Shown piece by piece: positions 12,096 to 29,500 of a DNA stretch of 48,461 nucleotides (position 1 is the stretch's first letter; every line of letters begins with the position of its first letter). The stretch is from Coriobacteriia bacterium. GTDB lineage: Bacteria > Actinomycetota > Coriobacteriia > WRKU01. Location: positions 1-48,461 of the forward strand of contig WRKU01000011.1 of NCBI GenBank assembly GCA_009777935.1, written 5' to 3'. The notes under the pieces are model-generated. The model was not told the origin of the DNA. It was given only the letters and a program-made list of their open reading frames with translations, and searched no databases. Both the position numbers and the translations under genes were made by a program.

Positions 12096-12728
12096 CTAGA
12101 GCGCGTCTAGAAGGTCAAAGACCTCGCCACGCACTATCTCAACATCCCGATCACCATCGACGCGCTTCAGAATACCCTTAGCGGCGTAGTAGTCGATGAG
12201 TGGCGCCGTCTGCGCCTCGTAAACCTCAAGGCGATTGCGCACCGTCGTCTCGTTGTCGTCATCACGCTGATACAGCTCGCCACCACACGCCGAGCACGTG
12301 CTTCCTTCGCTCGCATTCGTGATGCGGCCACAGGCACGACAGGTGCGGCGTGTCGTCAAACGCTTCACAATGACATCGAAGTCAACATCGACCGACAGCG
12401 CCAGCTCGATAGCTTTGCCGACCTCGGCAAGTGCCTCGTCGAGCGCTTCGGCCTGTGGGATGGTACGCGGAAAGCCGTCAAGGATGAAGCCGCGTTCGGT
12501 ATCGCCTGCAGTCAGGCGATCTTTCACGAGCCCCACCACAAGCGCATCTGGCACGAGATTACCGGCGTCCATGAACTTCTTGGCCTCAAGGCCGAGTGGC
12601 GTCTCGTTCGCAACCGCGGCGCGCAGGATGTCGCCCGTCGAGATCTGCGGGATGCCGTACTCCTCAACGATAAACTTCGCCTGCGTGCCTTTACCGGCTC
12701 CCGGCGCCCCCAGTAAGACTATGTTCAT
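12096..12728 (-). CDS. adk: Adenylate kinase, long form with zinc-type lid
   Basis: Catalyses ATP + AMP = 2 ADP in the cytosol. The 210-residue protein opens with the P-loop GAPGAGKGT (residues 7-15) and has the AMP-binding TGD(I/L)LRAA motif and DGFPRT. The lid carries four cysteines, Cys130-x2-Cys133 and Cys145-x2-Cys148, a structural zinc site typical of Gram-positive enzymes. The ATG at 12728 has AGGGAGG 9-10 nt upstream. It is separated from secY by 148 bp that contain one copy of the dispersed structured element described at 12764-12868. Confidence 0.97.
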   Translation of the reverse strand: MNIVLLGAPGAGKGTQAKFIVEEYGIPQISTGDILRAAVANETPLGLEAKKFMDAGNLVPDALVVGLVKDRLTAGDTERGFILDGFPRTIPQAEALDEALAEVGKAIELALSVDVDFDVIVKRLTTRRTCRACGRITNASEGSTCSACGGELYQRDDDNETTVRNRLEVYEAQTAPLIDYYAAKGILKRVDGDRDVEIVRGEVFDLLDAL

Positions 12729-12763
12729 AGTAGATAAACCTCCCTAGTGGTTAGACGAGTGCT

Positions 12764-12868
12764 CTAGGACGTGTGTAAGCAGGAGCGCAAACCGATTGCG
12801 AAATAAACGTAGTGGCCTACTTGTTTGAGCAATCGTTGTGCAGCGCGACACACTTAGACATGTCCTAG
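12764..12868 (+). repeat. Copy C of a dispersed structured element (secY-adk spacer, reverse to genes)
   Basis: On the plus strand this spacer starts CTAGGACGTGTGTAAG and ends CTTAGACATGTCCTAG, two arms that match as inverted repeats at 14 of 16 positions. Inside are the blocks shared with copies A and B: GTGTAAGCAGGAGCGCAA at the 5' side and GCAGCGCGACACACTTAGAC at the 3' side. Between them lies a hairpin with GATTGC/GCAATC outside and AAAC-GTAG/CTAC-GTTT inside. The element faces opposite to secY and adk, so it is not simply a leader of adk. Confidence 0.65.
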
Positions 12869-12876
12869 TGTGCTCG

Positions 12877-14151
12877 TTACTTAAAGAAGCCGTCGTAGTG
12901 GCGCATCTTCAACTGCGACTCAATCTGCGTCATCGTCTCAAGCGCCACACCAACCATAATCAGAATCGACGTGCCACCGAACTGCTGAATGAGCGGGTTG
13001 TTCGTCACGCTGAACAGGATCGATGTACCCACCGCAATCGTACCCAAAAACAGTGCGCCGGGCAGCACGATGCGGTTCATAACCGTCTGGATATACTCGA
13101 CCGTCTTCTGTCCAGGGCGTACACCGGGGATAAAGCCACCCTGTTGGCGCAGATTATCGGATAGCTCGATAGGATTGAAGATGAGGGCGGTATAGAAGTA
13201 GCTGAAGAACACGATAAGTATAAACGTAACAATCCAGTTGAGCGGACCGCTGCTTATCGCGTTGGCAAAGCTCTGGAACCACGGCGTATTGATGACGAGC
13301 GCGAGCTGCATCGGGATTGAGAGTATCGCGCTCGCAAAGATGATGGGGATGACGTTTGCACCGTTAACTTTCAGCGGGATATAGGTGGACGTACCGCCCA
13401 TGACGCGTCGGCCAACGACGCGCTTGGCGTAGTTGACAGGAATACGACGCTGGCCGCGATCGATGTAGATGACAACCATGATAACGGCAAGCACAACCGC
13501 AATGATAAGCGTAACCATCAGAGCGTTGCCCAGCGCACCATCGTTGCCAAACATAAGCGACGAAGCGAGCGCAGCCGGGAAGCCCGAGATAATCGAGGCA
13601 AAGATGAGCAATGACATGCCGTTGCCGATGCCGCGTTGCGTGATGAGCTCGGCAAGCCACATGATGAGCGTCGTACCGGCAACGAGCGTCACGACCACGA
13701 CCGCCATCGAGAACCAACGCGGCAGACCGCCACTGTAGTCGATGGCACCGGCAAATATCATGCCGATAAAACCGATGGCCTCAACGGTTGCGATAAACAC
13801 CGTCAGATAGCGCGTATACTGGGTAATCTTCTGCTGGCCGGCCTCGCCCTCTTTTTTCAAGCGCTCCAGCGCCGGGATAGCCGCCTGTAACAGCTGCATG
13901 ATAATGCTCGCCGTAATGTAGGGCATGACGCCAAGACTAAACACGCTGAACTGTGCCAACGCGTTGCCGGAAAACAGATTGAGCATACCGAGCGCCGGCA
14001 AGTTGTCGAGCGTCGCCTGAATCGACGTGGCGTTAACGCCAGGCACGGGAACGTGCGCACCAATACGATACAGCACGAGAATAAACAGCGTGAACATAAT
14101 CTTCTTGCGAAGATCGGGGACACGAAATGCGTTGGCGATAGCAGCAAACAC
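12877..14151 (-). CDS. secY: Preprotein translocase subunit SecY
   Basis: The central channel of the Sec translocon. The 424 residues contain the expected ten hydrophobic segments; the first transmembrane region begins KIMFTLFILVLYRIGAHVPV, followed by the plug region around LPALGMLNLFSGN. The cytosolic loop with GQRRIPVNYAKRVVGR, used for SecA and ribosome contact, is conserved. It starts 2 nt after rplO, the normal spc-operon position. It would carry the Sec-dependent exports seen in this window, including the RHS toxin and the lipoprotein. Confidence 0.97.
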   Translation of the reverse strand: MFAAIANAFRVPDLRKKIMFTLFILVLYRIGAHVPVPGVNATSIQATLDNLPALGMLNLFSGNALAQFSVFSLGVMPYITASIIMQLLQAAIPALERLKKEGEAGQQKITQYTRYLTVFIATVEAIGFIGMIFAGAIDYSGGLPRWFSMAVVVVTLVAGTTLIMWLAELITQRGIGNGMSLLIFASIISGFPAALASSLMFGNDGALGNALMVTLIIAVVLAVIMVVIYIDRGQRRIPVNYAKRVVGRRVMGGTSTYIPLKVNGANVIPIIFASAILSIPMQLALVINTPWFQSFANAISSGPLNWIVTFILIVFFSYFYTALIFNPIELSDNLRQQGGFIPGVRPGQKTVEYIQTVMNRIVLPGALFLGTIAVGTSILFSVTNNPLIQQFGGTSILIMVGVALETMTQIESQLKMRHYDGFFK

Positions 14152-14153
14152 GA

Positions 14154-14606
14154 TTACTCGACCGTCCCTCCGGCTTTTTTGATTTTCTCACCTGCTGAGG
14201 CCGAAATCTTATCGACCGAGACCTTCAGCGCCTTCGTCAGTTCGCCATTGCCAAGGATTTTGACCGGCAGTTTTGGCACGCCACCGGTGCTCTTGACGGC
14301 ACCCTTTGCTGCAAGCGAGTCGGGCGTCACCACGTCGCCGGCCTCGAAGAGCTCTTCGAGACGACCAACGTTAACGACCGCGTATTCCTGACGATTGATG
14401 TTCGTGAAACCGCCGAGCTTCGGCAGACGCATGTAGAGCGGGAGCTGCCCGCCCTCAAATCCCGGTCCCTTCGTGCCACCGGCACGCGAACCTTGACCAT
14501 CTTGCCCGCGTCCGCAGGTCTTACCTTTGCCCGAACCGGGACCGCGACCAACGCGCTTGCGCTCTTTGGTCGAACCCGGAGCAGGGAATAGATCGTGCAG
14601 TTCCAT
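14154..14606 (-). CDS. rplO: 50S ribosomal protein L15
   Basis: A 150-residue large-subunit protein. The glycine- and arginine-rich N terminus ([20 protein letters not shown], then [20 protein letters not shown]) is the L15 signature that threads into 23S rRNA. It lies between rpmD (2 nt) and secY (2 nt), and the tight spacing indicates one transcript with translational coupling. No unusual features. Confidence 0.97.
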
Positions 14607-14608
14607 CG

Positions 14609-14791
14609 TTATACCTCTTCAACTTCGACGAGATGCTTTACCTTAAAGACCATACCACGAATGACCGGGGTATCGTCGTGAACGACCGCGTGGCGAATCT
14701 TGCGCAAACCTAACGCCTTGAGCGTCGCACCCTGACTTTTCTCTTTGCCTATGGCGCTTTTGATTTGGGTAACTTTGAGTTGCTTAGGCAT
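14609..14791 (-). CDS. rpmD: 50S ribosomal protein L30
   Basis: A 60-residue protein of normal L30 length. It has the pattern [26 protein letters not shown] followed in the family by H-x-VV-x-D-TP-x-IRGM-x-x-V-HLV, which is fully visible here. Its start overlaps the end of rpsE by 8 nt. It is among the shortest true genes of the window and sits in its standard place between S5 and L15. Confidence 0.95.
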
Positions 14792-15380
14792 CGGCCTTCA
14801 CCGCCTCTTTCGCCGGCTTCTCTGTCGCGGCCTCAACATCCTCGACCGCCTTCTTCGACTCGGCCGGTTTGATACGGAACAGTTCCTCGACGGTCTTGCC
14901 GCGACGACGCGCGACATCCTCGACAAACTGCATGTTCTTGAGCCCTTCGATGGTCGCTTTGACCACGTTAATCGGGTTCGGCGAGCCAAGTGACTTGCTC
15001 AACACGTCGGTAAAGCCAGCAAGTTCAAGCACGGCACGCACCGGGCCACCGGCGATAATTCCCGTACCAGGGGCGGCGGGCTTAAGCACCACGCGTGCAG
15101 CGCCGAAACGACCGACATATTCGTGAGGAAGGGTTCCGTTAATAAGCGGCACCTTAATCATGTTCTTCTTGGCGTTCTCGATGCCCTTGGCAATCGCGGT
15201 CGGGACCTCGGCACTTTTACCCATGCCGACGCCTACACGCCCCGCACCATCGCCGACAACAACAAGTGCAGACAGCGAAAATCGACGCCCGCCTTTGACC
15301 ACCTTAGACACGCGGTTGATGTAGACCACTCTCTCCTGAAGCTCGGTATCTTGAGCCATATTGCGCGTATTACGAGCCAT
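14784..15380 (-). CDS. rpsE: 30S ribosomal protein S5
   Basis: A 198-residue protein of the small-subunit body, important for decoding accuracy. The N-terminal double-stranded RNA-binding domain ([20 protein letters not shown]) and the C-terminal domain with [18 protein letters not shown] are intact. A lysine-, alanine- and glutamate-rich tail of about 25 residues extends past the usual end, as often seen in actinobacteria. It starts 11 nt after rplR and overlaps rpmD by 8 nt. Confidence 0.97.
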
Positions 15381-15391
15381 ACCTGTTCCTC

Positions 15392-15760
15392 CTAGAACTT
15401 CAGGCCGGCGCTGCGTGCGCCTTCTGCCAGAGCTTTAACCCTACCGTGATAGATGCGGCCGCCACGGTCGAAAACGACCTCGGTAATCTTCGCATCTTTG
15501 GCGCGCGCGCCGATCGTCTCGCCCACCAAGGTCGCCGCCTCAACGTTCGAGCCGACCTTTCCCTTGCCGAGCAAACCCTTCTCGTTCGATGCCGCCGCCA
15601 CAAGGGTGCAACCGGTTACATCATCGATGAGCTGCGCGCTGATATGCGCGTTTGTCCGTGTCACACGCAGGCGTGGACGCTGAGCCGTGCCGGAAATTTT
15701 GCCGCGCACGCGCGTTTGACGACGCTTGAGGTCGGCGCTTTTCTTCTTCGTCTTAAGCAT
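15392..15760 (-). CDS. rplR: 50S ribosomal protein L18
   Basis: A 122-residue 5S rRNA-binding protein of the central protuberance. The core [20 protein letters not shown] and the end [25 protein letters not shown] are typical. Its ATG overlaps the rplF stop by one base (TAATG), so synthesis of L6 and L18 is coupled. Confidence 0.97.
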
Positions 15761-16311
15761 TACTTCGCCGCCTTTCCAAGCTTCCTACGTACGTATTCGC
15801 CTTCGTAGCGAATACCCTTGCCTTTATATGGCTCGGGCTTGCGCCACTTGCGAACATCGGCCGCGACCTGACCTACGGCCTGTTTATCGATACCCGAAAC
15901 GATAATTTCCGTCTGAGAGGGGGTCTCAAATTTGATGCCATTGACCGGCTTAACGAGCACCGGATGCGAGAACCCGAGCTGCATCTCGAGGTCAGAACCC
16001 TTCATCTGAGCGCGATAACCCACACCCACGATTTCAAGCTTCTTCGAGTAGCCCTCATTCACGCCAACGACCATGTTGTTTATCAGCGTACGTGCCAAGC
16101 CGTGCTGGCTTCGAGATTCGCGCTCGTCATCGGCGCGCATCACGACCACTTCGCCTTCATCAAGCTTGACGGTCAACAAAGAGGATATCTCTTGCGAGAG
16201 CTCACCTTTGGGCCCCTTCACCGTAACCTTTGTCGAGCCGCTGCTTGAGTTCTCAAGAGAGACCTCAATGCCACTTGGCACGGGAATAGGCATTTTACCG
16301 ATACGTGACAT
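15760..16311 (-). CDS. rplF: 50S ribosomal protein L6
   Basis: A 183-residue protein that binds the 23S rRNA near the factor-binding site. It starts [14 protein letters not shown] and has the conserved C-terminal phrase [17 protein letters not shown] just before the end. A short serine-rich loop ([19 protein letters not shown]) occurs in the first domain. It begins 15 nt after rpsH and overlaps rplR by one base. Confidence 0.97.
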
Positions 16312-16326
16312 TACGTCAATCCTTCC

Positions 16327-16725
16327 TTACCATACGTGCGCGAGCACTTCGCCGCCCACGCCTTTTTGCCGTGCGTCGTAGTCGGTCATAATGCCGCTCG
16401 ACGTCGAAATAATTGCAATACCAAGACCACCGAGCACGCGCGGAATCTCTCGGCTGTTCACATAGTTTCGCAGCCCCGGTTTGCTGATGCGCTTAATGCC
16501 GGCGATGGTGCGCTCGTTATCTTGTCCGTACTTAAGGACGATAACGAGCGTATCGCGTGGCGTACTCTTCTCAACGCGATAGTCGGCGATGTAGCCTTCC
16601 TGCAGCAGAATCTTAGCGATCGCCTCAAGCTTCTTGCTCGTTGGCATCGTGCACTGTGGCAGCGTAGCGCTGTTCGCATTACGAATGCGCGTTAGCATGT
16701 CTGCTATGGTGTCGTTCATACTCAT
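16327..16725 (-). CDS. rpsH: 30S ribosomal protein S8
   Basis: A 132-residue primary 16S rRNA-binding protein. The frame is open upstream to 16866, but the family start is [18 protein letters not shown]; the ATG at 16725 has GAGGAGAG 7 nt upstream, whereas the ATG two codons later is too far. The C-terminal [16 protein letters not shown] pattern, which contacts helix 21, is intact. In Escherichia coli S8 represses the spc operon at the L5 site; whether that holds here cannot be seen. Confidence 0.96.
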
Positions 16726-16748
16726 AAGATATCTCTCCTCCCCGGCCT

Positions 16749-16934
16749 CTACCAGCTTGCCTTGCGTACGCCGGGTAGCTCGCCCTTGCTCGCCATATCG
16801 CGCAGACAGATACGGCAGATGCCGAAGTCTCGATAGTATGCCCGCGGACGACCACACTTCACGCATCGGTTGTACTTGCGCGTCGAGAACTTAGGCTCGC
16901 GCTTTGCTTTCGCTATCATTGACTTTTTGGCCAT
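16749..16934 (-). CDS. rpsZ: 30S ribosomal protein S14, zinc-binding type Z
   Basis: A 61-residue S14 of the short zinc-containing class. Two CxxC pairs, CVKC and CRIC, separated by twelve residues, form the zinc ribbon; the end [10 protein letters not shown] is the family signature. Being a C+ form, it would normally be the zinc-replete version, with a longer C- paralogue elsewhere if one exists. It lies 10 nt after rplE and 23 nt before rpsH. Confidence 0.96.
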
Positions 16935-16944
16935 ACTGCGCTCC

Positions 16945-17490
16945 TTATGCTTTCTTCAACGGGAAGCCGAATCCCGTCAAGAGCGCACGAGCGCTCTCAT
17001 CATCGTGAGCCGTCGTTACAATAGTGATGTCCATACCCCGCGTGCGGTCAACTTTGTCGTAGTCAACCTCGGGGAATATCAGCTGTTCGGTAATGCCAAA
17101 GGTATAGTTGCCGCGTCCGTCGAAGCTCTTTGCCGACAGACCACGAAAGTCACGAATACGCGGGATAGCCGTGGCGAGCAAGCGATCGAAGAACTCCCAC
17201 ATGCGATCGCCACGCAACGTCACCTTCACACCGATAGGCATGCCTTCGCGCAGCTTAAAGCCCGCGATAGACTTGCGCGCACGGTTTATCCGCGGCTGCT
17301 GACCGGTGATGGTGCGCAGGTCCTCGATGGCGCCCTCAAGCTGCTTGGCATCGGCGACCGCGTCACCTACCCCCATGTTGACGACGATCTTCTCGATGCG
17401 AGGAATCTGCATCGGGTTATGCAGAGACAGCTCGTCTTTAATCTTCGGAGCAACCTCTTTAACGTACTTTTCTTTCAGCCGTGGGGCCAT
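16945..17490 (-). CDS. rplE: 50S ribosomal protein L5
   Basis: A 181-residue 5S rRNA- and P-tRNA-contacting protein. The frame is open to 17562, but the homologous start is [13 protein letters not shown], an ATG at 17490 just after the rplX stop (13-nt gap). Conserved phrases include [31 protein letters not shown] and the end [24 protein letters not shown]. No anomalies. Confidence 0.96.
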
Positions 17491-17503
17491 ACCTCTTGCC
17501 TTC

Positions 17504-17824
17504 CTACTCGAACTCGGCGCCACATACTTTGCACAGGCGAACCCGTGCGCCGTCGTCGGCACGCTTGATGCCTACACGCGTAGGCTTGTTGCACTTCGGG
17601 CAGACCAGCATCACGTTGCTCACGTGAATAGGCAGCTCCATATCGCGGAATCCGCCTTTCTGGTTCTGCTGCGTCGGGCGCACTGCTTTCTTGGCGACGG
17701 CGATGTGCTCGCACACCACACGCTCGCGTTGCGGATATGCACGCAGCACGCGCGACTCCTTGCCCTTATCTTTGCCGGCGATAACGACCACCTTATCGCC
17801 CTTTCTGATACGAAACTTAGCCAT
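17504..17824 (-). CDS. rplX: 50S ribosomal protein L24
   Basis: A 106-residue assembly-initiator protein. It opens with the KOW motif ([20 protein letters not shown]). The C-terminal half carries CPKC and CKVC pairs, a zinc-ribbon-like feature of many actinobacterial L24 proteins. The start is the ATG at 17824 rather than the TTG at 17830, because GGTAGGGG lies 6 nt before the ATG and would directly abut the TTG. Confidence 0.96.
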
Positions 17825-17838
17825 TTTCAACCCCTACC

Positions 17839-18210
17839 TTACAGCACTTCCGGTGCCAGCGAGACGATCTTCATGTATCTCTTGTCGCGCAGCTCGCGTG
17901 CGACCGGCCCGAAGATGCGCGTACCGCGCGGATTACCCGTGGCCGGGTCAATGACGACGGCCGCGTTGTCATCGAACTTGATGTAGCTGCCATCCTTGCG
18001 GCGATGCTCCTTGACGCAACGCACGACGACGGCCTGGACGATCTCGCCCTTTTTGACGCCAGAGTTCGGCTGGGCCTCTTTGACCGAGCACACAATTACG
18101 TCGCCCACGCGCGCATAGCGACGCTTCGAGCCACCGAGTACCTTGATGCACGCGAGCTTGCGGGCACCCGAGTTATCGGCCGCTTTGAGTCTGGTTTCTG
18201 ACTGAATCAT
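17839..18210 (-). CDS. rplN: 50S ribosomal protein L14
   Basis: A 123-residue protein at the subunit interface near L19. It begins [19 protein letters not shown] and shows [22 protein letters not shown], and the end [18 protein letters not shown], all typical. It starts 20 nt after rpsQ and ends 14 nt before rplX. Confidence 0.97.
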
Positions 18211-18230
18211 TGCCGGTCCCGTTCCTTCTC

Positions 18231-18482
18231 CTATTTCGCCTTCTCGACGATCTCGATGAGGCGCCAGTGCTTCATCTTTGACAGTGGACGTGTCGCCATA
18301 ACCGTAACCGTATCGCCCACGCCGGCCTCGTTGCCCTCATCGTGGGCATGAAGCTTGCTCGTGGTCGTGATCATCTTTCCGTAAAGCGGATGCTTCTTAC
18401 GCCGTGAGATTTGGACAACGATCGTCTTATCGCTGGCCGCACTTACGACGGTTCCGGTAAACGTTTTGCGATTATTGCGCAT
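18231..18482 (-). CDS. rpsQ: 30S ribosomal protein S17
   Basis: An 83-residue OB-fold protein that binds 16S rRNA early in assembly. The open frame extends to a TTG at 18494, but GGAG at 18489-18492 sits 6 nt before the ATG at 18482, which gives the family start [14 protein letters not shown]. The gene therefore overlaps the end of rpmC by 11 nt. Conserved phrases are [19 protein letters not shown] and the C-terminal [11 protein letters not shown]. Confidence 0.95.
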
Positions 18483-18681
18483 CTGAAGCTCCAACTATCT
18501 CTCGTGAGCGCGTCTCGGTGAGCAAACGCGCGATCGTCCTCTTGACTTGACCAATCTTGCTCGTGTCATCGACCTGACCGGTCGCAAGACGGAAGCGCAA
18601 GTTGAAAAGTTCTTCGCGCGCGTTTACGAGCTCCTGAGCAAGCTGCTCGTCAGGCAACGCGGCTACATCCTGTGCTTTCAT
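18472..18681 (-). CDS. rpmC: 50S ribosomal protein L29
   Basis: A 69-residue two-helix protein at the exit of the nascent-chain tunnel. It shows ELAQELVNAREELFNLRFRLATGQ and the IGQVKRTIARLLTETR helix. Its stop lies 11 nt inside rpsQ, and it starts 3 nt after rplP, so the three genes are tightly coupled. Confidence 0.96.
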   Translation of the reverse strand: MKAQDVAALPDEQLAQELVNAREELFNLRFRLATGQVDDTSKIGQVKRTIARLLTETRSREIVGASDAQ

Positions 18682-18684
18682 CCT

Positions 18685-19107
18685 CTACGCCTCCTTCTCT
18701 TCTTCTCGAACAACGAACTTCGTCTTAACGGGCATCTTATGCTGAGCAAGGCGAATTGCTTCACGGGCGACCTCTTCGTCGACCCCTGCAACCTCGAACA
18801 TCACGCGTCCCGGCTTTACCACGGCAACCCACTTCTCGGGGTTACCCTTACCCGAACCCATGCGAGTCTCGGCAGGTTTTTGCGTAATCGGCTTGTCAGG
18901 GAAGATAGTAATCCATACCTGACCACCACGCTTCATGTAGCGCGTCATGGCAACACGGGCAGCCTCAATCTGGCGGCTGGTAATCCAGCCCTTTTCCAGT
19001 GTCTGCATACCGTACTCGCCAAAGGTAACCTTCGTGCCACCTTTTGCTTTGCCCTTCATCGAACCGCGCTGCACCTTGCGGTACTTTACGCGCTTTGGCA
19101 TCAACAT
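18685..19107 (-). CDS. rplP: 50S ribosomal protein L16
   Basis: A 140-residue protein next to the A-site tRNA elbow. It opens [20 protein letters not shown] and contains [35 protein letters not shown]-type sequence; the arginine around position 82 that is hydroxylated in some bacteria lies in the [17 protein letters not shown] region. The ATG overlaps the rpsC stop by one base (TAATG). Confidence 0.97.
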
Positions 19108-19823
19108 TACTTACGACCTCCCCCGCCTCGGTTATTGCGACGGTTCCCTCCACGCGGTGCGCGTACACCCTCAAGTGCAGGGTTAAGTGGCGGCTGACCC
19201 GGCATGACTTCGCCGTGATAGATCCAGACCTTGACGCCGATGATACCCATCGGTGTCTGCGCGCGTGCGGTACCGTAGTCGATACGAGCACGCAAGGTGT
19301 GAAGCGGCACACGGCCTTCGCGGTACCACTCGCGGCGAGACATCTCGGCACCGCCAAGACGGCCGGAGACCTGTACGCGAATGCCCTTCGCACCACTCTT
19401 CATTGCCGTGGTGACGGCCTTGCGCATCGCACGACGAAACGCTACGCGCCCCACGAGCTGGTCGGCAATCGACTGTGCCACGAGCGTGGCATCGAGTTCG
19501 GGACGCACGACCTCGGTAATCTTAACATCAACCGAGCCATCGGTAATCTTGAGAATCTCCTTGCGAAGCTCGTCGATCTCTGCACCGCCCTTACCGATGA
19601 CGATACCCGGGCGCGCCGTGTGCACATTGACGTAGACCTTCTCGCCTTTACGCTCGATGAAGATGTTGCTCACCGAAGCACGCGCCAGACGCTTCTCAAG
19701 GAATGTGCGGAGCTCGATATCGTTGGCGAGCGTCTTCGCATAGTCCTTGCCACCGAACCAGTTGGAGCGGTGTTGCTCGGTCATGCCGAGGCGAAAACCT
19801 GTCGGATTGACTTTCTGACCCAT
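19107..19823 (-). CDS. rpsC: 30S ribosomal protein S3
   Basis: A 238-residue protein of the mRNA entry channel. The KH domain has [16 protein letters not shown], and the C-terminal domain has [19 protein letters not shown] basic glycine- and arginine-rich tail ([15 protein letters not shown]) closes the protein. It starts 2 nt after rplV and overlaps rplP by one base. Confidence 0.97.
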
Positions 19824-19825
19824 AC

Positions 19826-20176
19826 TTACTCCTTGGTTCCTACCACCACGGTAATGTGGCTGGTGCGTTTACGAATACGATACGCCATGCCGCGCGCGCG
19901 CGGACGGATACGCTTGAGCGTCGGTCCTTCGTCGGCAAAACATGCGACGATAGTAAGGTCCTCAGCGTTCGCCTGATGGTTGTTTTCGGCGTTGCTCGCG
20001 GCACTGTTGACGACCTTGAGGATCGTCTCGGCGGCGGCACGGTCGCTGAACTGCAGAATCGTACGAGCCTCCGGTACCGATTTGCCACGGATAAGGTCGA
20101 GCACAAGGCGCGCTTTACGCGGCGCAATGCGCTGGAACTTTGCTACTGCTTGAGACTGTATGCCGTCTTGTTGCAT
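19826..20176 (-). CDS. rplV: 50S ribosomal protein L22
   Basis: A 116-residue protein whose loop lines the peptide exit tunnel. It has [21 protein letters not shown] and the loop end [22 protein letters not shown]; the tip residues where macrolide-resistance changes occur look ordinary. The N terminus ([16 protein letters not shown]) is slightly longer than in E. coli, as in other actinobacteria. Confidence 0.97.
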
Positions 20177-20188
20177 GTGCCTGCCCCC

Positions 20189-20440
20189 TTAGTGCCCGCG
20201 GTAGGTGCGCGTCGGGCTGAACTCGCCCAATTTGTGCCCTACCATCGACTCGGTGATGTAGACAGGAACGTGCTTGCGACCATCGTGGACCGCAATCGTG
20301 TGGCCAACCATCTCAGGGAAAATCGTCGAGGCGCGTGACCACGTCTTGACGACGTCCTTTTTGCCTTCTTCATTCATCTTCTGCACACGCATAAGCAAGC
20401 GAGGTTCGACGAACGGTCCTTTTTTCAGACTTCTACTCAC
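20189..20440 (-). CDS. rpsS: 30S ribosomal protein S19, short C terminus
   Basis: An 83-residue protein of the 30S head. It begins [15 protein letters not shown] and ends at [13 protein letters not shown], so it lacks the eight to ten basic residues that usually follow (type AKDDRKAKRR). That tail is disordered in many structures and shorter forms exist, so this is probably normal for the lineage. It lies 14 nt after rplB. Confidence 0.96.
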
Positions 20441-20454
20441 AGTACCCTCCTCGG

Positions 20455-21285
20455 TTACTTCTTACGGCGCCTGATGATGAGGCGATTGGTCGATTTGTTC
20501 TTCTTGCGGGTGCGGTGGCCTTTCGTCGGCACACCCCACGGGGTCACGGGATGGCGGCCGGCAGATTTGTTCTTACCCTCGCCACCACCGTGTGGATGGT
20601 CAACCGGGTTCATTGCGGTACCGCGTACGCTGGGACGCACACCTTTGTGACGCATGCGGCCTGCCTTGCCCCAGTTGATGTTGGCGTGCTCGGCGTTGCC
20701 GACCTCACCAATGGTGGCACGGCACTCGATGAGCACACGGCGCATCTCAGAACTCGGCATACGCAAAATGGCGTACGTGCCCTCTTTACCCATGAGCTGG
20801 ATACTGGTGCCGGCGCTACGTGCGAGTGCCGCGCCTTTGCCAGGCTCAAGCTCGACGGCATGTACGACCGTACCGACCGGGATATCTTTAAGCTTCAGTG
20901 CACAGCCGGGCTTGATATCGCTGCCCTCACCGCTCGTAATCATCTGGCCGACCTCAAGGCCCTTCGGCGCGAGGATGTAGCGCTTTTCACCATCGGCATA
21001 GTGGAGTAACGCGATGCGCGCATTACGATTCGGGTCGTACTCAATCGTCGCAACCTTAGCCGGGATACCGTCCTTGTTGCGCTTGAAGTCGATGACGCGG
21101 TAACGACGCTTGTGGCCGCCACCCTGATGACGCACGGTGATGCGACCGTTGTTGTTACGCCCACCCTTCTTGTGGAGCGGCTCAAGCAACGACTTCTCCG
21201 GTGTCGTGCAGGTAATCTCGGAAAAGTCCGAGACCGACATACCGCGACGGCCGGGAGAGGTTGGCTTATATTTCTTGACTCCCAT
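20455..21285 (-). CDS. rplB: 50S ribosomal protein L2
   Basis: A 276-residue protein needed for subunit joining and peptidyl transfer. It starts [21 protein letters not shown]. The conserved C-terminal block [18 protein letters not shown] contains the histidine implicated in peptidyl-transferase function, and [19 protein letters not shown] closes the protein. It lies 9 nt after rplW. Confidence 0.98.
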
Positions 21286-21294
21286 GTTACGCTC

Positions 21295-21597
21295 CTACAC
21301 TCCCGGGAAGAGGTCAATCTTGTCGCCCTCGGCGAGCGTGACAAGCGCCTTTTTCCAGCTTTTCGTGTGACCCAACTGATACCGAACGCGGCGTGGTTTA
21401 CCTGCCACGTTCATCGTATTGACTTTGACAACCGTGACGCCGAAAATCTCTTCGACGGCTTGGGCAATCTGCGGCTTCGACGCTGACTTAGCAACCTCAA
21501 ACGTATAGACGTTGTTGGTCTCCATCGCATAGAGCGACTTCTCGCTCACGATAGGACGAAGGATGACTCCGCGAGGGTTGTGTGTGGTTGCAGCCAT
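21295..21597 (-). CDS. rplW: 50S ribosomal protein L23
   Basis: A 100-residue tunnel-exit protein that docks trigger factor and SRP. Conserved phrases are [45 protein letters not shown] and the basic loop [19 protein letters not shown]. Its ATG overlaps the rplD stop by one base (TAATG). Confidence 0.97.
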
Positions 21598-22223
21598 TAG
21601 CCGAGCACCTCCTCGATAAACTTCAGCGCATCTTTCGAGATAACGAGCATCTTGTTGTCGATGATGTCGTAGGTGTTGACCTCAAAGGCAAAGATGACGC
21701 GACAGCGGTCAATGTTGCGCAAGGAAAGATAGGCGTTGTCGTCCTCGTTGCCGACGATAACGGTAACCTTCTTACCCTCAAGACCGAGCTCCTTGAGAAG
21801 CGCAGCACCGGCTTTTGTCGACGGCTCGGCAAAGTCGAACTTATCGACGACAACAAGCTGCTCGTCGGCGAGTTTAGCCGAAAGTGCACTGCGCATGGCC
21901 AGCTTGATGACCTTGTTCGGCACCTTGAACGCATAGCTGCGCGGGCTGGGGCCAAAGGTGACACCACCGCCGACCCACTGTGGCGCACGAATCGTACCCT
22001 GGCGCGCACGACCGGTGCCTTTTTGGCGCCACGGCTTTCTGCCGCCGCCACGCACCATGCTGCGCGTTTTCGTCGCATGCGAGCCACTGCGAATCGCCGC
22101 AAGCTGGCTACGCACGACCGTGTGCATCGCAAAGGTGTTGGGCTCGATTGCGAAGATGTCGTCGGTCGCCTTGACCGCCGTCTTCTTCGTGCCCTTTGCA
22201 TCGAATGTCCTGATAGTTGCCAT
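21597..22223 (-). CDS. rplD: 50S ribosomal protein L4
   Basis: A 208-residue protein with a globular domain on 23S domain I and a long loop into the exit tunnel. The loop sequence RGGGRKPWRQKGTGRARQGT followed by IRAPQWVGGGVTFGP is intact. In E. coli L4 autoregulates the S10 operon by acting on the leader before rpsJ. Here the only large spacer in this part of the operon lies after rpsJ and holds structured element A. rplD starts 22 nt after rplC. Confidence 0.97.
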   Translation of the reverse strand: MATIRTFDAKGTKKTAVKATDDIFAIEPNTFAMHTVVRSQLAAIRSGSHATKTRSMVRGGGRKPWRQKGTGRARQGTIRAPQWVGGGVTFGPSPRSYAFKVPNKVIKLAMRSALSAKLADEQLVVVDKFDFAEPSTKAGAALLKELGLEGKKVTVIVGNEDDNAYLSLRNIDRCRVIFAFEVNTYDIIDNKMLVISKDALKFIEEVLG

Positions 22224-22245
22224 GTTGTGTTGCTCCCCCTGCCCT

Positions 22246-22866
22246 TTACGCCTTGACGGTCAAGAGCGCACCACGGCCACCGGGAACGGCGCCTTTGACG
22301 AGCAAAAGGTTCTGCTCGGGGTCGACCTTGACGACATCAAGATTGCGGACAGTTACGGTATCATTGCCCATACGACCGGGCATCTTGCGACCTTTGAATA
22401 CACGCGCAGGAGTTGCTGCCTGACCGATTGAGCCGGGTGTACGATGAAAGTGTGAGCCGTGGCTGGCACGACCACCACTAAAGTTATGACGTTTGATAAC
22501 ACCGGCAAAGCCTTTACCTTTGCTGGTACCGGAGACGTTAACGCTTTTAATATCCTCGAAGTCAGCGACGGTAATAGTGTCGCCGGCTTTGAGCTCGGTC
22601 GGCTCGCTAAGACGAATCTCGGCGAGATGCTTGTAGGCAGTCTTAGCCTGCTTATTGTTCTTCGTGATATGACCGGCCGTCGGCTTATTGACCGTATCGA
22701 TTTCGACCTCACCGAAGCCAACCTGTATCGCATCGTAGCCATCTTTTTCGGCCGTCTTCACCTGGGTAATGACGCACGGTCCGGCCTCGATGACGGTCAC
22801 CGGGATGAGGTTGCCGTCCTCAGACCACACCTGGGTCATACCCAACTTTTTGCCTAATATCTTCAT
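22246..22866 (-). CDS. rplC: 50S ribosomal protein L3
   Basis: A 206-residue protein whose extension reaches the peptidyl-transferase centre. The core NFSGGRASHGSHFHRTPGSI and GRKMPGRMGN are typical; the latter includes the glutamine methylated in some species within the preceding region. The start ATG (MKILGKKLGMTQVW) has no recognisable Shine-Dalgarno: GCTAGCCGCCAGAC abuts it directly, and this sequence is part of the conserved surroundings of structured element A. Initiation may therefore depend on that structure or on translation coming from upstream. Confidence 0.97.
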   Translation of the reverse strand: MKILGKKLGMTQVWSEDGNLIPVTVIEAGPCVITQVKTAEKDGYDAIQVGFGEVEIDTVNKPTAGHITKNNKQAKTAYKHLAEIRLSEPTELKAGDTITVADFEDIKSVNVSGTSKGKGFAGVIKRHNFSGGRASHGSHFHRTPGSIGQAATPARVFKGRKMPGRMGNDTVTVRNLDVVKVDPEQNLLLVKGAVPGGRGALLTVKA

Positions 22867-22880
22867 GTCTGGCGGCTAGC

Positions 22881-22983
22881 TAAATCACGTCTAAGTGCGT
22901 CGAGCTGCGTAGCGATTCGTGCTCACGACCGTTAAGGTCGCTGCGCGCCAAATCAACTTGCTCTCCTTCTTACACACGATTTA
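22881..22983 (-). repeat. Copy A of a dispersed structured element (rpsJ-rplC spacer)
   Basis: In the mRNA sense the element opens TAAATCGTGTGTAAG and closes CTTAGACGTGATTTA, arms that pair with few mismatches. Shared blocks are GTGTAAGAAGGAGAGCAA near the 5' end and GCAGCTCGACGCACTTAGAC near the 3' end. The interior holds a hairpin CGACC-TTAAC-GGTCG nested in a longer stem. Like copy B it is bordered outside by GAAGGCAACGAT and AGCTAGCCGCCAGAC. It fills an unusually long 168-bp gap inside the S10 operon. A 21-codon frame from a TTG just after AGGAG is also open, so a leader peptide is an alternative reading. Confidence 0.7.
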
Positions 22984-23034
22984 TCGTTGCCTTCCCCTTT
23001 CTCGTGAAACTTGAGTCTGCGCTCAGTGGTTTCC

Positions 23035-23358
23035 TTATGCCTTAATCTCGATTTCAACGCCGGCAGGAAGGTCGAGGCGACGTAGCGAGTCGGCCGTCTT
23101 GTCTCCCACCTTTGTAATATCAATGAGACGCTTGTGTGTACGAATTTCGAACTGCTCACGACTATCCTTGTCGACGTGCGGTCCCCGGATAACGCAGTAA
23201 AGATTGCGCGACGTTGGCAGCGGGATAGGACCGGCAATCTCGGCACCGGTCTTAATCGCCGTATCGACGATCTTTTTCGCGCTCAGGTCGACGACCTCGT
23301 GATCGTAGCCCTGTAGGCGAATGCGAATCTTTTGCTTTGCTGCTGCTGTTGCCACCAT
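23035..23358 (-). CDS. rpsJ: 30S ribosomal protein S10
   Basis: A 107-residue protein of the 30S head. Core [20 protein letters not shown] and [29 protein letters not shown] are typical. ATG at 23358 lies 3 nt after AAGGAG and a GTG one codon later lies 6 nt after it, so either may be used. It starts only 11 nt after fusA, so the str and S10 operons are joined with no tuf gene between, and no separate S10 promoter was seen. Confidence 0.97.
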
Positions 23359-23369
23359 CTGCTCCTTCG

Positions 23370-25460
23370 TTAACCTGTCACGCCCATTTTCGCCGCGACT
23401 TCCTCGGCGATTGACTTTGGAACCGGCTTGTACGCGCCAAAATGCATCGTGTAGACGGCACGTCCCTGCGACTTACTACGCAGATCGGTCGAGTAACCAA
23501 ACATCTCGGAGAGCGGTACCTCTGCGTTGACGACCTTGGCACCGGCGCGATCTTCCATCGCTCCGATATGTCCACGACGCGAGCTGAGGTCGCCCATAAC
23601 GTCACCCATGTACTCTTCGGGTGTGACGACTTCGACGTCCATGACTGGTTCAAGCAACACGGGGTTCGAGCGCTTGAGCGCTTCCTTGACCGCCATCGAA
23701 CCGGCGATTTTGAACGCCATCTCGCTTGAGTCGACCTCGTGGTGCGACCCATCGATGAGCTCGATCTTGATGTCGACGGTCGGAAAGCCCGAAAGCACTC
23801 CGGTATTGAGTGCTTCCTGGATGCCCTTGTCGACACTAGGGATGTATTCTTTGGGGATAGCGCCTCCGACAATCTTGCTCTCAAACTCGTAGCCGGCGCC
23901 GGGCTCTTGCGGGATGAGGTTGATGATAACGTGACCGTACTGGCCGCGTCCACCAGACTGACGGGCGAACTTCATGTCGACATTGTCGACCTGTTTGCCG
24001 GCCGTCTCTCTGTAGGCAACCTGCGGTTTACCGATATTCGCCTCGATCTTAAATTCACGTAGCAAACGGTCGACAATGACCTCGAGATGAAGTTCGCCCA
24101 TACCGGCGATAATCGTCTGACCGGTCTCTTGATCGGTGCGTACACGGAAGGTAGGGTCTTCCTCAGCCAGACGCGCGAGTGCGATGCCTAGCTTGTCTTG
24201 CTCGGCCTTGGTCTTTGGCTCGATTGCGATGTCGATAACGGGATCGGGAAAGACCATCGACTCAAGAACAACGGGAGCCTTTTCATCACAGAGCGTGTCG
24301 CCCGTCGAGGTATCTTTGAGGCCAACGGCAGCGACGATATCGCCTGCGCGGCAGGCGTTGATGTCCTCACGATTATTTGCGTGCATCTGCAGAAGGCGCC
24401 CGATGCGCTCTTTCTTGCCCTTGAGCGAGTTGAGCACATAACTGCCACTCTCAAGCGTGCCCGAGTAGACACGGAAGTAGGTGAGCTTGCCGACGAAGGG
24501 GTCGGTCATAACCTTGAACGCGAGCGCTGCGAAGGGCTCTTTGGGGTCCGGCTTGCGCTCGACCTCGGCGCCTGTCTTGGCGTCTTCACCCTTAATGGGC
24601 GGCACGTCGAGCGGGCTGGGAAGATATGCGACGACCGCATCGAGCATCTGCTGGACGCCCTTGTTCTTGAAGGCCGATCCGCAGATGACCGGCGTCATCG
24701 TACAGGCAATCGTTGCCTTGCGCAGGCCTGCTTTGAGCTGCTCGGCCGTGATGGCGTCTTCGTCTTCGAGATAGAGCATCATGAGCTCATCGTCGCAGTC
24801 CGCTGCCGCCTCAATGATGGCCTTGCGGGCCTCTGTTGCTTGCTGAAGGTATTCGTCGGGAATATCACCGACGGTGGGGTTTTCGTTCTTGTCGTCATCG
24901 GAAAAGAAAACGGCATTCATCTCCACGAGGTCGATGATGCCTTTGAAGTTGTCCTCTGCGCCCATCGGAATCTGAATAGGCACCGCGTTAGCAGCGAGAC
25001 GATCCTTCATCATGTCAATGACGTTGGTAAAGTCTGCGCCGGTGCGGTCCATCTTGTTAACAAACGCCATGCGAGGAACGTGGTAGTTCTCGGCCTGGCG
25101 CCAGACGGTCTCGGACTGCGGCTGCACGCCGCCAACCGCACAAAAAACTGCAACCGCGCCATCGAGCACGCGCAAACTGCGCTCGACCTCGACGGTAAAG
25201 TCGACGTGGCCCGGCGTATCGATAATCTGAATACGATGATCGCCCCAAAAGCACGTCGTCGCAGCGCTCGTGATAGTGATGCCACGTTCTTGCTCTTGCT
25301 CCATCCAGTCCATCGTGGCTTGGCCTTCGTGAACTTCGCCAAGCTTGTGCGATTTGCCGGTGTAGTAGAGAATGCGCTCGGTCGTCGTCGTTTTACCTGC
25401 ATCAATGTGAGCCATGATGCCGATGTTGCGCGTGTTATCGAGGGAGTACGTTTTAGCCAT
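23370..25460 (-). CDS. fusA: Elongation factor G
   Basis: A 696-residue GTPase that drives translocation of tRNA and mRNA. G1 is [10 protein letters not shown]2 falls in the following switch, G3 is DTPGH and G4 is NKMD. Domains II-V follow with ordinary length; the domain IV phrase GGRGQYGHV and the domain V end are conserved. It lies 15 nt after rpsG and 11 nt before rpsJ. In many actinobacteria tuf follows fusA; here it does not, so EF-Tu must be encoded elsewhere. Confidence 0.98.
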
Positions 25461-25475
25461 GAGTCTCGATATCCT

Positions 25476-25946
25476 CTACCAGCGGTAGTGCGAAAACGCG
25501 CGGTTCGCTTCTGCCATCTTAAATACGTCTTCGCGCTTCTTGACCGCGTTGCCAGCCTCATTGGCGGCTTCCATGATCTCAGCGGCGAGGCGCTCGGCCA
25601 TCGTTTTTTCCTTGCGAGTACGCGAGTAGCCGACGATCCAGCGGATACCAAGCGTCGTCGAACGACGGCTGTTGACCTCGACGGGAACCTGATACGTCGA
25701 GCCACCAACACGCTTTGGACGCACCTCGATCTGCGGCTTTACGTTATCCATCGCCTGCTTAAATACGCTCAGCGGATCTTGGCCGGTCTTTTGCTCGATG
25801 ATGTCAAAGGCACCGTAGACGATGCGCTCGGCCGTCGACTTCTTGCCGTCCCATAGAATCTTGTTGATAAGCTGCGTGACGAGACGATTGTTGTAACGAG
25901 CGTCCGGGGTGGTTTCGCGGCGCTCCGGTGCGTTTCGGCGTGGCAT
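25476..25946 (-). CDS. rpsG: 30S ribosomal protein S7
   Basis: A 156-residue 16S rRNA-binding protein of the head. The open frame extends to 26045 inside rpsL, but the family start is [20 protein letters not shown] at 25946, one base after the rpsL stop. Conserved phrases are [42 protein letters not shown] and the C-terminal FSHYRW, which matches the standard short actinobacterial end. In E. coli S7 represses the str operon; no matching site could be judged here. Confidence 0.97.
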
Positions 25947-25947
25947 A

Positions 25948-26319
25948 CTACTTCTCCTTCTTCGCGCCGTAACGGCTACGAGCTTGCTTGCGATCGGCAA
26001 CGCTTGCGGCGTCAAGAGCACCGCGCACGACCTTGTAGCGCACACCGGGAAGGTCCTTCACACGACCACCGCGCACGAGCACGATTGAGTGCTCCTGCAA
26101 GTTGTGACCGATACCAGGAATATAGGCAGTGACCTCCATTTTGTTCGAAAGACGCACACGACAGACCTTACGAAGGGCAGAGTTTGGCTTTTTCGGCGTG
26201 GTCGTATAGACACGCGTACACACACCGCGAAGAAGCGGGTTACCTTTGAGCGCCGGCGTCTTGCTCTTTTCGACACTCTTTTTGCGGCCCTTGCGAACCA
26301 GCTGGTTTATGGTCGGCAT
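25948..26319 (-). CDS. rpsL: 30S ribosomal protein S12
   Basis: A 123-residue decoding-centre protein. The frame remains open for 38 codons upstream, but the homologous start is [12 protein letters not shown] at 26319, with AAAGGGAAAG about 6 nt before it. The streptomycin-related lysines in [12 protein letters not shown] and [12 protein letters not shown] are the wild-type residues. The stop is one base before rpsG. The leader contains structured element B, and a consensus promoter lies at 26493-26521. Confidence 0.97.
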
Positions 26320-26349
26320 TACGTCTTTCCCTTTCGTCTGGCGGCTAGC

Positions 26350-26433
26350 TTGTCGTCGTCTAAGTTTGTCGCTGCGAAGCTCACGTACAGAAAACGTACG
26401 CATCGCTTCTGGCTCCTTCTTACACGCCGACAA
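26350..26433 (-). repeat. Copy B of a dispersed structured element (rpsL leader)
   Basis: In the mRNA sense this copy opens GATTGTCGGCGTGTAAG and closes CTTAGACGACGACAAGC, arms that pair at 14 of 17 positions. It contains GTGTAAGAAGGAGCCAG and CGCAGCGACAAACTTAGAC, the shared blocks, around a hairpin with GAAGC/GCTTC outside and CGTAC/GTACG inside. As in copy A, GAAGGCAACGAT precedes it and AGCTAGCCGCCAGAC follows. It lies wholly in the untranslated leader of rpsL, about 30 nt before the start codon. Confidence 0.7.
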
Positions 26434-26459
26434 TCGTTGCCTTCTTGCTTAGGACATGG

Positions 26460-26491
26460 AAAAATCCTTGCCCAATTTTCGCGCAAGGATT
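26460..26491 (-). terminator. Terminator-like hairpin at the rpsL transcription start
   Basis: The transcript would read AATCCTTGC, an 11-nt loop, GCAAGGATT and a run of five U: a 9-bp stem with U tract, the standard form of an intrinsic terminator. The first arm (26491-26483) overlaps the predicted start point of the rpsL promoter, near 26486. Read-through RNA from rpoC can form the full hairpin; RNA begun at the rpsL promoter would lack half of the first arm. Confidence 0.65.
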
Positions 26492-26492
26492 A

Positions 26493-26521
26493 ACAATACT
26501 GGAAAGGTAACAAACTGTCAA
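26493..26521 (-). promoter_or_regulatory. Consensus sigma-A promoter for rpsL-rpsG-fusA and downstream genes
   Basis: TTGACA at 26521-26516 and TATTGT at 26498-26493 are separated by exactly 17 bp on the minus strand. The predicted start is near 26486, giving a leader of about 165 nt that contains structured element B. With no promoter evident before rpsJ, it may drive the whole run of ribosomal protein genes. Confidence 0.75.
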
Positions 26522-26531
26522 CTGATAATGC

Positions 26532-26570
26532 AGATACGGATTCGGAGAAATCGTCGCCGAATCCGTATCT
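26532..26570 (-). terminator. Perfect 14-bp hairpin after rpoC
   Basis: AGATACGGATTCGG and its exact complement flank an 11-nt loop, ten bases after the rpoC stop. No U tract follows (GCATTATC), so it may be a processing or stabilising hairpin or a weak terminator. Together with the U-tract hairpin at 26460-26491 it makes a double barrier between rpoBC and the str genes. Confidence 0.65.
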
Positions 26571-26579
26571 TTGTGCGCT

Positions 26580-29500
26580 CTACCCTAACGCAGGCAGTTT
26601 TGCCGCCGTGAGACCCGCCTCAATCTCCTTGATTGCCGCAGGGCCAATACCCGGCAGCGCTTCGAGATCGGCGGCACTTTTACCGGCAAGATCATCGACC
26701 GACGCAATGCCGGCCTCGGCAAACTTTTTCGCCCAACGGGTTGAAACTCCTAGCTCAGATAGGGTCTTTACCGCCGCAAAAGGATTGGCCGGTGCATCAG
26801 GGTCATCGGTAAAATCATCCGAGGCCGGAACTCCCAGCAGCGTCTCGTTCTCGTCCATACCCACAACGGCATCGGCGCCACCCAGCATCTCATTCGGGTC
26901 AAACGTCTGGCCAAGGTACTTCGAGACGTCGATTTCAACGTCATCATCCCACGTATAAGAAAATGGCGCATCACCGGCTTTTGAGCTGCCCGAACCGCTG
27001 AGATCGCTCATCAGCCCGTCGATACCCATGCTGTCGATAGCATCAGGCGTCATCGCCTCAATCTCGCGCAGATTATCGCGCAACGCATCGGGTGCTACCT
27101 CAAGGTCGGTTGAGTCCTTGACCTCGGTGCCCTTGTACGAAAGGCCGACGCTACGATAGCGCTTCATACCGGTGCCAGCCGGAATGAGCTTACCGATAAT
27201 GACGTTTTCTTTGAGCCCCTCAAGACGATCTTCGCGGTTTTCGATTGCCGCCTGTGCCAAGACCGTCGTCGTCCACATAAAGCTGGCGAGCGACAGGAAC
27301 GACTCGCTACCAAGTGAACGCATTGAGGCACGTACAATTTGGAGTGGACCGATGAGTGTGTCTATGGCCTCGGCCGGCTTACCTCCGGCGGCGATTATCT
27401 CATCGTTAACCTGCAAGAAGTGCGTGCGATCGACGTACGAATCTACGAGAAGATTCGTGTCGCCACTCTCGACAATCTTGACCTTTAGGAGCATGCGACT
27501 CGCAATGACCTCGAAGTGTTTGTCGTTGAGCTCAACACCTTGACTACGATAGACATCTTGCAACTCTTGGATAATCCAACGCAGCATCTTCTCGCGGCCA
27601 ACGATTTCGAGCATATCGGGGCCATATGGACGACCTTTTGTTAGGCTGTCACCGGCCTCGACAATATCACCTGTTTTCACGTCAAGGATATGCTCAGGGC
27701 CAAGCGGTTTTGTCGACCATTTTTTGTTGCGCGTACCAGTTACTGTGATGACCGGCTTGCCACTCTCGGTGGTAACCGTCACCTTACCGCTCTGCGGCGC
27801 CAAGACCGCAAAGACGCGATTTGCGCGCGGTGACTCGAGAATTTCATTGACGAGCGGCAGGCCCTGCGTAATGTCGGTACCGGCAACACCACCGGTGTGG
27901 AACGTACGCATCGTCAGCTGCGTACCGGGCTCACCGATGGACTGAGCTGCGATAACACCGACAGCGGTGCCTACATCGACGGGCTGACCGTTACTCAGGT
28001 CATAGCCATAGCACTTCTGACAGATAGCACGTCCCTCAAGGCATGTCAGTGCCGTGCGAATCTCAACCGTCTCGAGGCCGGCCTCTTCAAACGCAGCGAG
28101 TTGCTTGGTGTCGACGATGTACTCGCCGGCAGCAAGGAGCACCTTGCCTCTCTCGCCTTTGACATCACCGGCGACGACGCGCCCAACCAGGTTGTCATCG
28201 AGTTCGCCGGAGTGAGCCGCACGCAGCTTCGTCGGAACGCCCTCGCGCGTCCCGCAGTCCTCGATACGCACGATTGCATCATGCACAAAGTCAAGGAAGC
28301 GACGTGTCGTATAACCACCGGTCTCGGTACCAAGAGCCGTGTCGGCAAGACCCTTACGCGCGCCGTGCGTCGAGATAAAGTACTCGAGCACTGTCAGCCC
28401 CTCACGGAAGTTCGACTTCACGGGACGGTCGATGACGTCACCCTTTGGCGACTGCATCAGGCCACGCATGCCGCCAAGCTGGCGGAACTGCTTAAGATTG
28501 CCGCGTGCGCCTGAATCGGCCATCTGATAGATTGGGTTTCGTATGTCAAAGCTCTCGACCATCGCTGCACCGATTTCATCGGTCGCGCGGTTCCACACGT
28601 CGATGATGAGCTTGTGGCGCTCGGCTGCATCCATCGTACCCATGTTGTACGCGTCTTCAATAGCGCGCGCTTCCTCATCGTACTTGGCGAGAATCTCGGC
28701 CTTGTTATCCGGCGTCGTCGCATCGGCGAGCGCAACGGTGATACCGGCCATCGTCACGTAGTGGAAGCCGAGACGCTTCACTTCGTCGAGGATGATACCC
28801 ATTTCGTTGGTGGAATAGCGTTCAGACAGCTCCTCAACGATATCGGCAATACGGTTCTTGTTGAGCGTGTAGTTGATATAGGGAAAATCCTCAGGCAGCC
28901 CGTGGTTGAAGATAAGACGCCCGACCGTCGTGCGCATGCGCTCGCCGGCGGCCACTTTGGTACCGGCGAGATCATCAACGTTATCACGCACCACGATATC
29001 TTGGGCTACTCGCACCTCGATTGGTTCCTGCAGGTCAACGTTTTCACGCGAATCGTGCGCAACGAGTGCCTCATCCTGGTCTTTGAAGACGGGTGGGTGT
29101 TCGCGCTCGTCGTTATCGCGCTGCGTCGTCAGATAGTAAAGACCTAGCACCATGTCTTGCGATGGCGTCGCAAGTGCCTTACCGTTTGCCGGGCTCTTGA
29201 TGTTGTTCGTCGACAACATGAGCACGCGTGCTTCGGCCTGTGCTTCGGCCGAAAGCGGCACATGAACGGCCATCTGGTCGCCGTCGAAGTCTGCGTTAAA
29301 GGCCGTACAAACGAGCGGATGCAAACGAATCGCTTTGCCCTCGACGAGTATCGGCGCAAACGCCTGAATGCCGAGGCGGTGCAGCGTCGGTGCACGGTTG
29401 AGCAGCACCGGGTGGTCTTCAATGACCTCCTCGAGCACATCCCAAACAATGGCGCGCTGGCGGTCAACGAACTTCTTGGCTGCTTTGATGTTGGGCGCAC

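Follow-up and report, generated by a model that had tools for sequence, protein, structure and literature searches.

A family of small palindromic repeats in many Coriobacteriia keeps its fold while its letters change

Rickettsia palindromic elements (RPEs) are palindromes of ~100–150 bp that lie between genes and also in frame inside unrelated genes, where the resulting peptide is tolerated (PMC10969869). The Wolbachia palindromic elements resemble them in size, dispersal, division into several subfamilies and tolerated in-frame insertions. REP/REPIN sequences, which are linked to RAYT transposases, form hairpins in intercistronic and 3′ positions, and in E. coli some REPs lie ≤15 nt from a stop codon and stall ribosomes (PMC12306157). 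Miniature inverted-repeat elements (MITEs) of the ERIC and NEMIS/Correia types are small and non-autonomous and occur in many copies with imperfect terminal inverted repeats. In the attC sites of integrons, it is the bottom strand that folds, just after a gene, into a variable stem with fixed unpaired features. Finally, a screen of human microbiomes by Fremin and Bhatt (2021) yielded 250 palindromic structured-RNA candidates, including one Collinsella group upstream of rplL (PMC8040213). The main text of that paper does not describe the family reported here, some members of which may stand unnamed among its supplementary candidates.

Here we analyzed a 48,461-nucleotide stretch from the genome of a termite-gut-like Coriobacteriia MAG (the window), in which a first-pass annotation had reported three copies of a structured element. 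The three copies were found at the positions given, with the motifs ascribed to them, and all fold into one common rod-like hairpin. Sense and antisense orientations both occur as the annotation had said, but it had matched its letters to the wrong coordinates: the antisense copy is the one at 12764–12868, and the sense copies are those starting at 22881 and 26350. The copies and their neighbors are listed below, with scores from R1, a covariance model built on the eight host copies carrying GTGTAAGNAGGAG. This sequence occurs nine times in the 1.1-Mb host genome, eight of them in elements, and its reversed pattern does not occur there.

12096..12728, minus strand: adk, the next gene in the secY operon (NF001380, E 2.3e-88)
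12756..12876, plus strand: copy A, type I, 121 bp, with ends CGAGTGCTC...GTGTGCTCG (fold z-score -5.0; R1, 121 bits)
12773..12785, plus strand: conserved 5′ strand of the copy A internal loop, GTGTAAGCAGGAG (invariant alignment columns)
~12847-12860: partner strand of this internal loop, CGACACACTTAGAC (invariant alignment columns)
12877..14151, minus strand: secY (TIGR00967, E 3.7e-121), its stop codon adjoining copy A
22868..22991, minus strand: copy B, type II, hairpin at 22881-22983, in sense in the rpsJ-rplC spacer (fold z-score -2.3)
26337..26441, minus strand: copy C, type II, short form, hairpin at 26350-26433 (R1, 66 bits, and fold; z-score -2.7)

Copy A, whose core reads GTGTAAG-C-AGGAG...GCAGCGCGACACACTTAGAC, lies between secY and adk, antisense to both, with its 3′ edge directly beside the secY stop codon (TTA at 12877-12879). 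Copy C, a sense copy, precedes rpsL in the rpoC-rpsL spacer. Copies B and C have in common the motifs GGCAACGAT (5′) and AGCTAGCCGCCAGAC (3′) outside the hairpin, and the type II copies as a group (B, C and those in a tRNA operon) differ from the others at their base. The 3′ tail of copy B runs up to the rplC ATG at 22866. In this stretch (22866-22991), the ATG immediately follows the tail (CTAGCCGCCAGAC-ATG), the usual place of a Shine-Dalgarno sequence holds none, and an AGGAG lies ~100 nt upstream, within the internal loop of the hairpin.

The hairpin combines fixed and variable parts. Above an outer stem, a fixed motif of GUGC facing GUGC, which forms two tandem G-U pairs, stands at the base beside a U-U mismatch; distal to it come a variable stem, a mid-hairpin loop, a second stem and a tip loop. 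The middle of the host family consists of UAAG/CUUA and an internal loop of N-AGGA facing GAC-NNA, that of the other families of a GA/GA loop, and an asymmetric loop in AGCG...CGUGAGC lies near the tip. Compensatory change, which the first-pass annotation had proposed for a dispersed structured element, was borne out among the eight host paralogues: 20 of 44 pairs were changed on both sides against a shuffled mean of 8.8, and the score of 0.39 (shuffled, 0.14) was equaled by none of 500 shuffles. When partners were slid against each other as a control, the signal was lost. Covariation in relatives had been named beforehand as decisive; a relative from the same order had double changes at 35 of 51 pairs across its 11 copies (21.1 when shuffled; score 0.65 versus 0.25), likewise well in excess of both controls. 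Furthermore, the seven copies at the pheS 3′ end, from six genomes of two families, had both sides changed in 16 of 36 pairs. These results indicate that the hairpin fold is under selection and that the paired letters between the fixed modules are free to vary in a compensated manner. Insertion into existing palindromes, the other origin that had been considered, is not favored by internal loops, tandem G-U pairs and an apical loop conserved across unrelated sites, nor by a near-identical genome that lacks the element and has no such palindrome at the pheS site.

A covariance-model search for further copies, also suggested at the outset, returned ~17 in the host with R1, six in one same-family genome and additional ones at the family and order levels. 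A second model, R2, built on the long form of one rich carrier (G011), matched 26 of 120 sampled Coriobacteriia genomes, with at least 25 copies in the richest. Among 80 rpsL loci of mixed phyla (765 kb), R2 had one match, from a Coriobacteriales MAG. In GC-rich genomes, searching with a simple apical-motif pattern gave too much noise. The elements are ~105–130 bp long, and within one genus many copies are 82–91% alike. Most copies lie outside ribosomal regions, so the setting emphasized in the first description is incidental. Its statement that no named element is of this kind held: at both gathering and lenient thresholds, no Rfam 15 family matched the element or any part of the window, 11 other loci gave only T-box leaders located away from the elements, and the family was nowhere described in our literature searches. 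Candidate T-box leaders below the Rfam cut-off were also seen upstream of pheS in three genomes (L317:954-1212, L320:1012-1270 and L321:2750-2992). Thus, this is a family of small palindromic repeats, present in many Coriobacteriia, in which the fold is kept while the letters change. It spans a class of animal-gut bacteria yet has been missed by collections of RNA families and repeats, a likely reason being this change of sequence under a constant structure.

For the strand test, the left arm of each copy in the R2 set was aligned with the complement of the right arm, and G-T and A-C were scored alike. Read on the antisense strand of the gene, G-T outnumbered A-C by 469 to 70, with G-T in excess in each group; fixed tandem pairs contribute to this excess, and the variable columns of one alignment still gave ~41 to 5. 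This preponderance identifies the antisense strand as the folded one. The pheS copies have folding energies of -53 to -74 kcal/mol on the antisense strand and -36 to -60 kcal/mol on the mRNA strand. On the folded strand, the hairpin is closed by C(UNCG)G, a stable RNA tetraloop, in 11 of 89 copies, which hints at RNA. These sequence comparisons suggest a function specific to one strand. The complementary strand, as present in the host-gene mRNA, folds too, more weakly, from the stop codon on; by analogy with REP sequences, such a hairpin may affect mRNA decay or translation termination.

Placement was scored for 88 copies outside the host, with gene borders taken from our own caller rather than from annotation and, for GC-rich genomes, from GC3-trained, Pfam-confirmed calls. 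In co-directional spacers (n = 57), 54 copies were antisense to the adjacent ending gene and three were sense (binomial p ~4e-13, for copies that are not fully independent, some sites being common by descent). The edge of the element fell ≤5 nt from the stop codon in 29 of 40 copies from the order and two other families, where even placement predicts 5.2, and the stop codon often lies within the basal stem. Pfam-checked genes beside elements include pheS, cysS, GH1, rplK, rplX, ffh, moeA, greA, fba and dapB/lysC, and nusG was identified by position and C-terminus only. Native C-termini beside elements are intact (for example, PheS ...RFLNQF*), and the GH1 and rplX sites carry the element in different genera. 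Copy A obeys the antisense stop-codon rule exactly; B and C, in sense upstream of rplC and rpsL, do not, and the tRNA-operon copies break it as well. The latter are type II copies at differing points inside a tRNA-Tyr/Thr/Met operon in four genomes (L128, L034, L019 and L022), many of which reach exactly to the 5′ end of a tRNA; other copies end at tRNA 3′ ends (L125, L020, L225 and L228).

In a fourth group (f6), the edge lies ~40 nt from the stop codon because a small second hairpin intervenes. This hairpin, GTTCCGNCGGCC...GGCCGNCGGAAC, was seen in the f6 genomes (L240-L250 and L253), whose copies also have a conserved CAGGTTGGC on the far side, making a composite repeat of ~180 bp. A search by eye for an antisense promoter in front of the f6 copies revealed a weak -10-like stretch only and no conserved -35. 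At the 3′ end of secY in another genome (G001, L335), an unrelated long hairpin, TGAGACAGTAGGGGCGGTTCC...GGAACCGACCCTACTGTCTC, likewise starts at and takes in the stop codon; gene ends may thus be occupied by more than one hairpin family.

Empty sites, the comparison of which had been recommended at the start, were found in the pheS-pheT spacer. Its flanks are 96–97% identical in G106 and G076, and the element is present in G106 only. Overall, the spacer is occupied in six genomes (G106, G108, G100, G028, G030 and G086), with two copies in tandem in G028, and empty in seven (G076, G026, G032, G024, G036, G092 and G098). Close relatives with and without the pheS copy thereby constitute a natural experiment. 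In addition, secY of G002 is followed by a partial relic of the element, and the rpsL site of L042 gave no match to the element models. The search for mobilizing enzymes covered genomes several of which are incomplete: a Y1 transposase was absent from 12 of the 14 checked and a reverse transcriptase domain (RVT_1) from 16 of the 19 checked, the richest carriers included in both cases. PF01797 was absent from the host (G000), G001, G002, G005 and G009–G013, and present in G003, which has no match to R1 or R2. An RVT_1 domain does occur in the host (G000:C10:2704-3333, L356; E 1.2e-11) and is missing from most other carriers; mobilization by reverse transcription was rejected on the grounds that only three of 19 genomes, none of them among the richest carriers, have this domain. 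Flank repeats of 4–5 nt accompany 54 of 89 copies, a frequency that we take to be probably near chance.

Five host copies, all antisense, lie in open frames, namely those of ArgS, ArgD, RsmH, a GltD-like flavoprotein and an activase-like protein, where a loop or linker gains 30–43 residues. The inserted stretch of argS, argD and the GltD-like gene is absent or a short loop in PDB homologues or in the ArgS of seven relatives. Three of the five copies are nearly identical and in the same reading frame, and so look recent. This is a second setting, far from Rickettsia, in which palindromes enter proteins in frame, here including such basic genes as argS and rsmH.

The family thus shares with RPEs both their size and dispersal and their in-frame insertion, a likeness judged by these features. 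It differs in phylum from the Rickettsia and Wolbachia elements, and from RPEs in that most copies are antisense at stop codons, with a strand-specific fold, fixed loop modules and strong compensatory change. REP/REPIN elements differ: the present elements are three to four times longer (105–130 nt, not 20–40 nt) and also occur inside genes, a GTAG near the 5′ end was found in 10 of 89 copies, and a Y1 (RAYT) transposase is absent from the host and most rich carriers. As in MITEs, terminal inverted repeats are present, in the form of basal stems made imperfect by G-U pairs, and the occupied and empty pheS-pheT sites are as expected of MITE movement; however, a parental transposase was not found, and across the class it is structure more than sequence that is common. 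The outline of attC recurs in that a long hairpin of variable sequence lies on the antisense strand of the gene immediately before it. In short, the position recalls REPs, the in-frame insertion RPEs and the folded antisense strand attC, and the defining features of REPs and attC that we tested were absent. Two regulatory identities were also rejected: an intrinsic terminator, since a T-run follows the hairpin in one of 89 copies on the folded strand and five of 89 on the mRNA strand, and a riboswitch or ribosomal-protein leader, since copies occur in either orientation and in a wide range of unrelated settings.

We consider these repeats to be, with fair though far from full confidence, non-autonomous, mobile and turning over, with a one-strand hairpin that is maintained and recognized. 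An enzyme encoded elsewhere would recognize this hairpin, as RNA or single-stranded DNA, and spread the copies; these are gained and lost, and they lie preferentially at a stop codon and antisense to the ending gene, and occasionally in frame inside a gene. The stop-codon spot could be a target preference sharpened by selection because both neighbors stay intact there. Counted against mobility are the search for a mobilizing enzyme, which found none, the lack of a clear target-site duplication, the exceptions to the antisense rule (B, C and the tRNA-operon copies), and the sharing of the pheS 3′-end site by two families, which could reflect inheritance of a useful element. The last point leads to the main rival, which is clearly less probable but a serious contender: a cis-acting RNA useful to the host at gene ends rather than chiefly a selfish repeat, acting as an antisense-transcript barrier to polymerases before the gene, an mRNA 3′-end stabilizer or a ribosome-termination signal. 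Tight stop-codon placement, covariation among the seven pheS copies, the GH1 and rplX sites common to different genera and the ribosome stalling by E. coli REPs close to stop codons (PMC12306157) all suit such a role. It accords poorly with copies in frame inside genes, with absence from close relatives and most of the 120 genomes, with 88 of 89 hairpins lacking a T-run, and with a better-folding strand that is not the mRNA strand, antisense transcription being only putative. A host function at gene ends, through antisense transcripts or mRNA, may also coexist with mobility.

Two further explanations were considered. In an integron attC-like recombination site, the strand that folds and recombines is the one antisense to the gene upstream, and the geometry is indeed the same; yet RYYYAAC and GTTRRRY boxes occur together in none of 89 copies, and the neighbors are housekeeping operon genes outside cassette arrays, which makes this reading very unlikely. 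A mutational artefact, in which template switching or hairpin correction keeps palindromes symmetrical without selection, would account for paired changes arising in a single event. Such processes would, however, erase the mismatches, internal loops and tandem G-U pairs that every family has conserved, and would not favor G-T over A-C 6.7:1 on one strand; the fixed mismatches in particular argue against plain palindrome correction, and this already disfavored explanation is the least probable of those considered. A link to stop codons and to a single strand would not have been expected of a MITE or a REP. That the family is a new kind of element, a class-wide repeat directed to stop codons with a fixed orientation and recognized via its folded antisense strand by a novel enzyme or RNA process, is a tentative proposal that we hold to be rather doubtful. 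The link to stop codons and to one strand poses a question that can be tested: what reads the hairpin of the antisense strand, and for what reason at stop codons?

Several other features of the window were observed. Between rpoC and copy C, two more hairpins lie at 26463-26575, AATCCTTG...CAAGGATT and ATACGGATTCGG...CCGAATCCGTAT. RpoC itself (26580-31238) has a C-terminal match to the alpha-subunit C-terminal domain (NF003519, E 2.7e-4), as in a beta′/alpha fusion, and its best match is the beta′/alpha-type model PRK14906, which we take to be tied to Coriobacteriia. The nearest named rpsL to that of the window comes from the Coriobacteriia MAG Emb289P1bin4. Adjoining the ribosomal cluster, positions 2164-10584 encode a 2806-aa protein that contains RHS repeats and has an N-terminal domain of the carbohydrate esterase 2 type.
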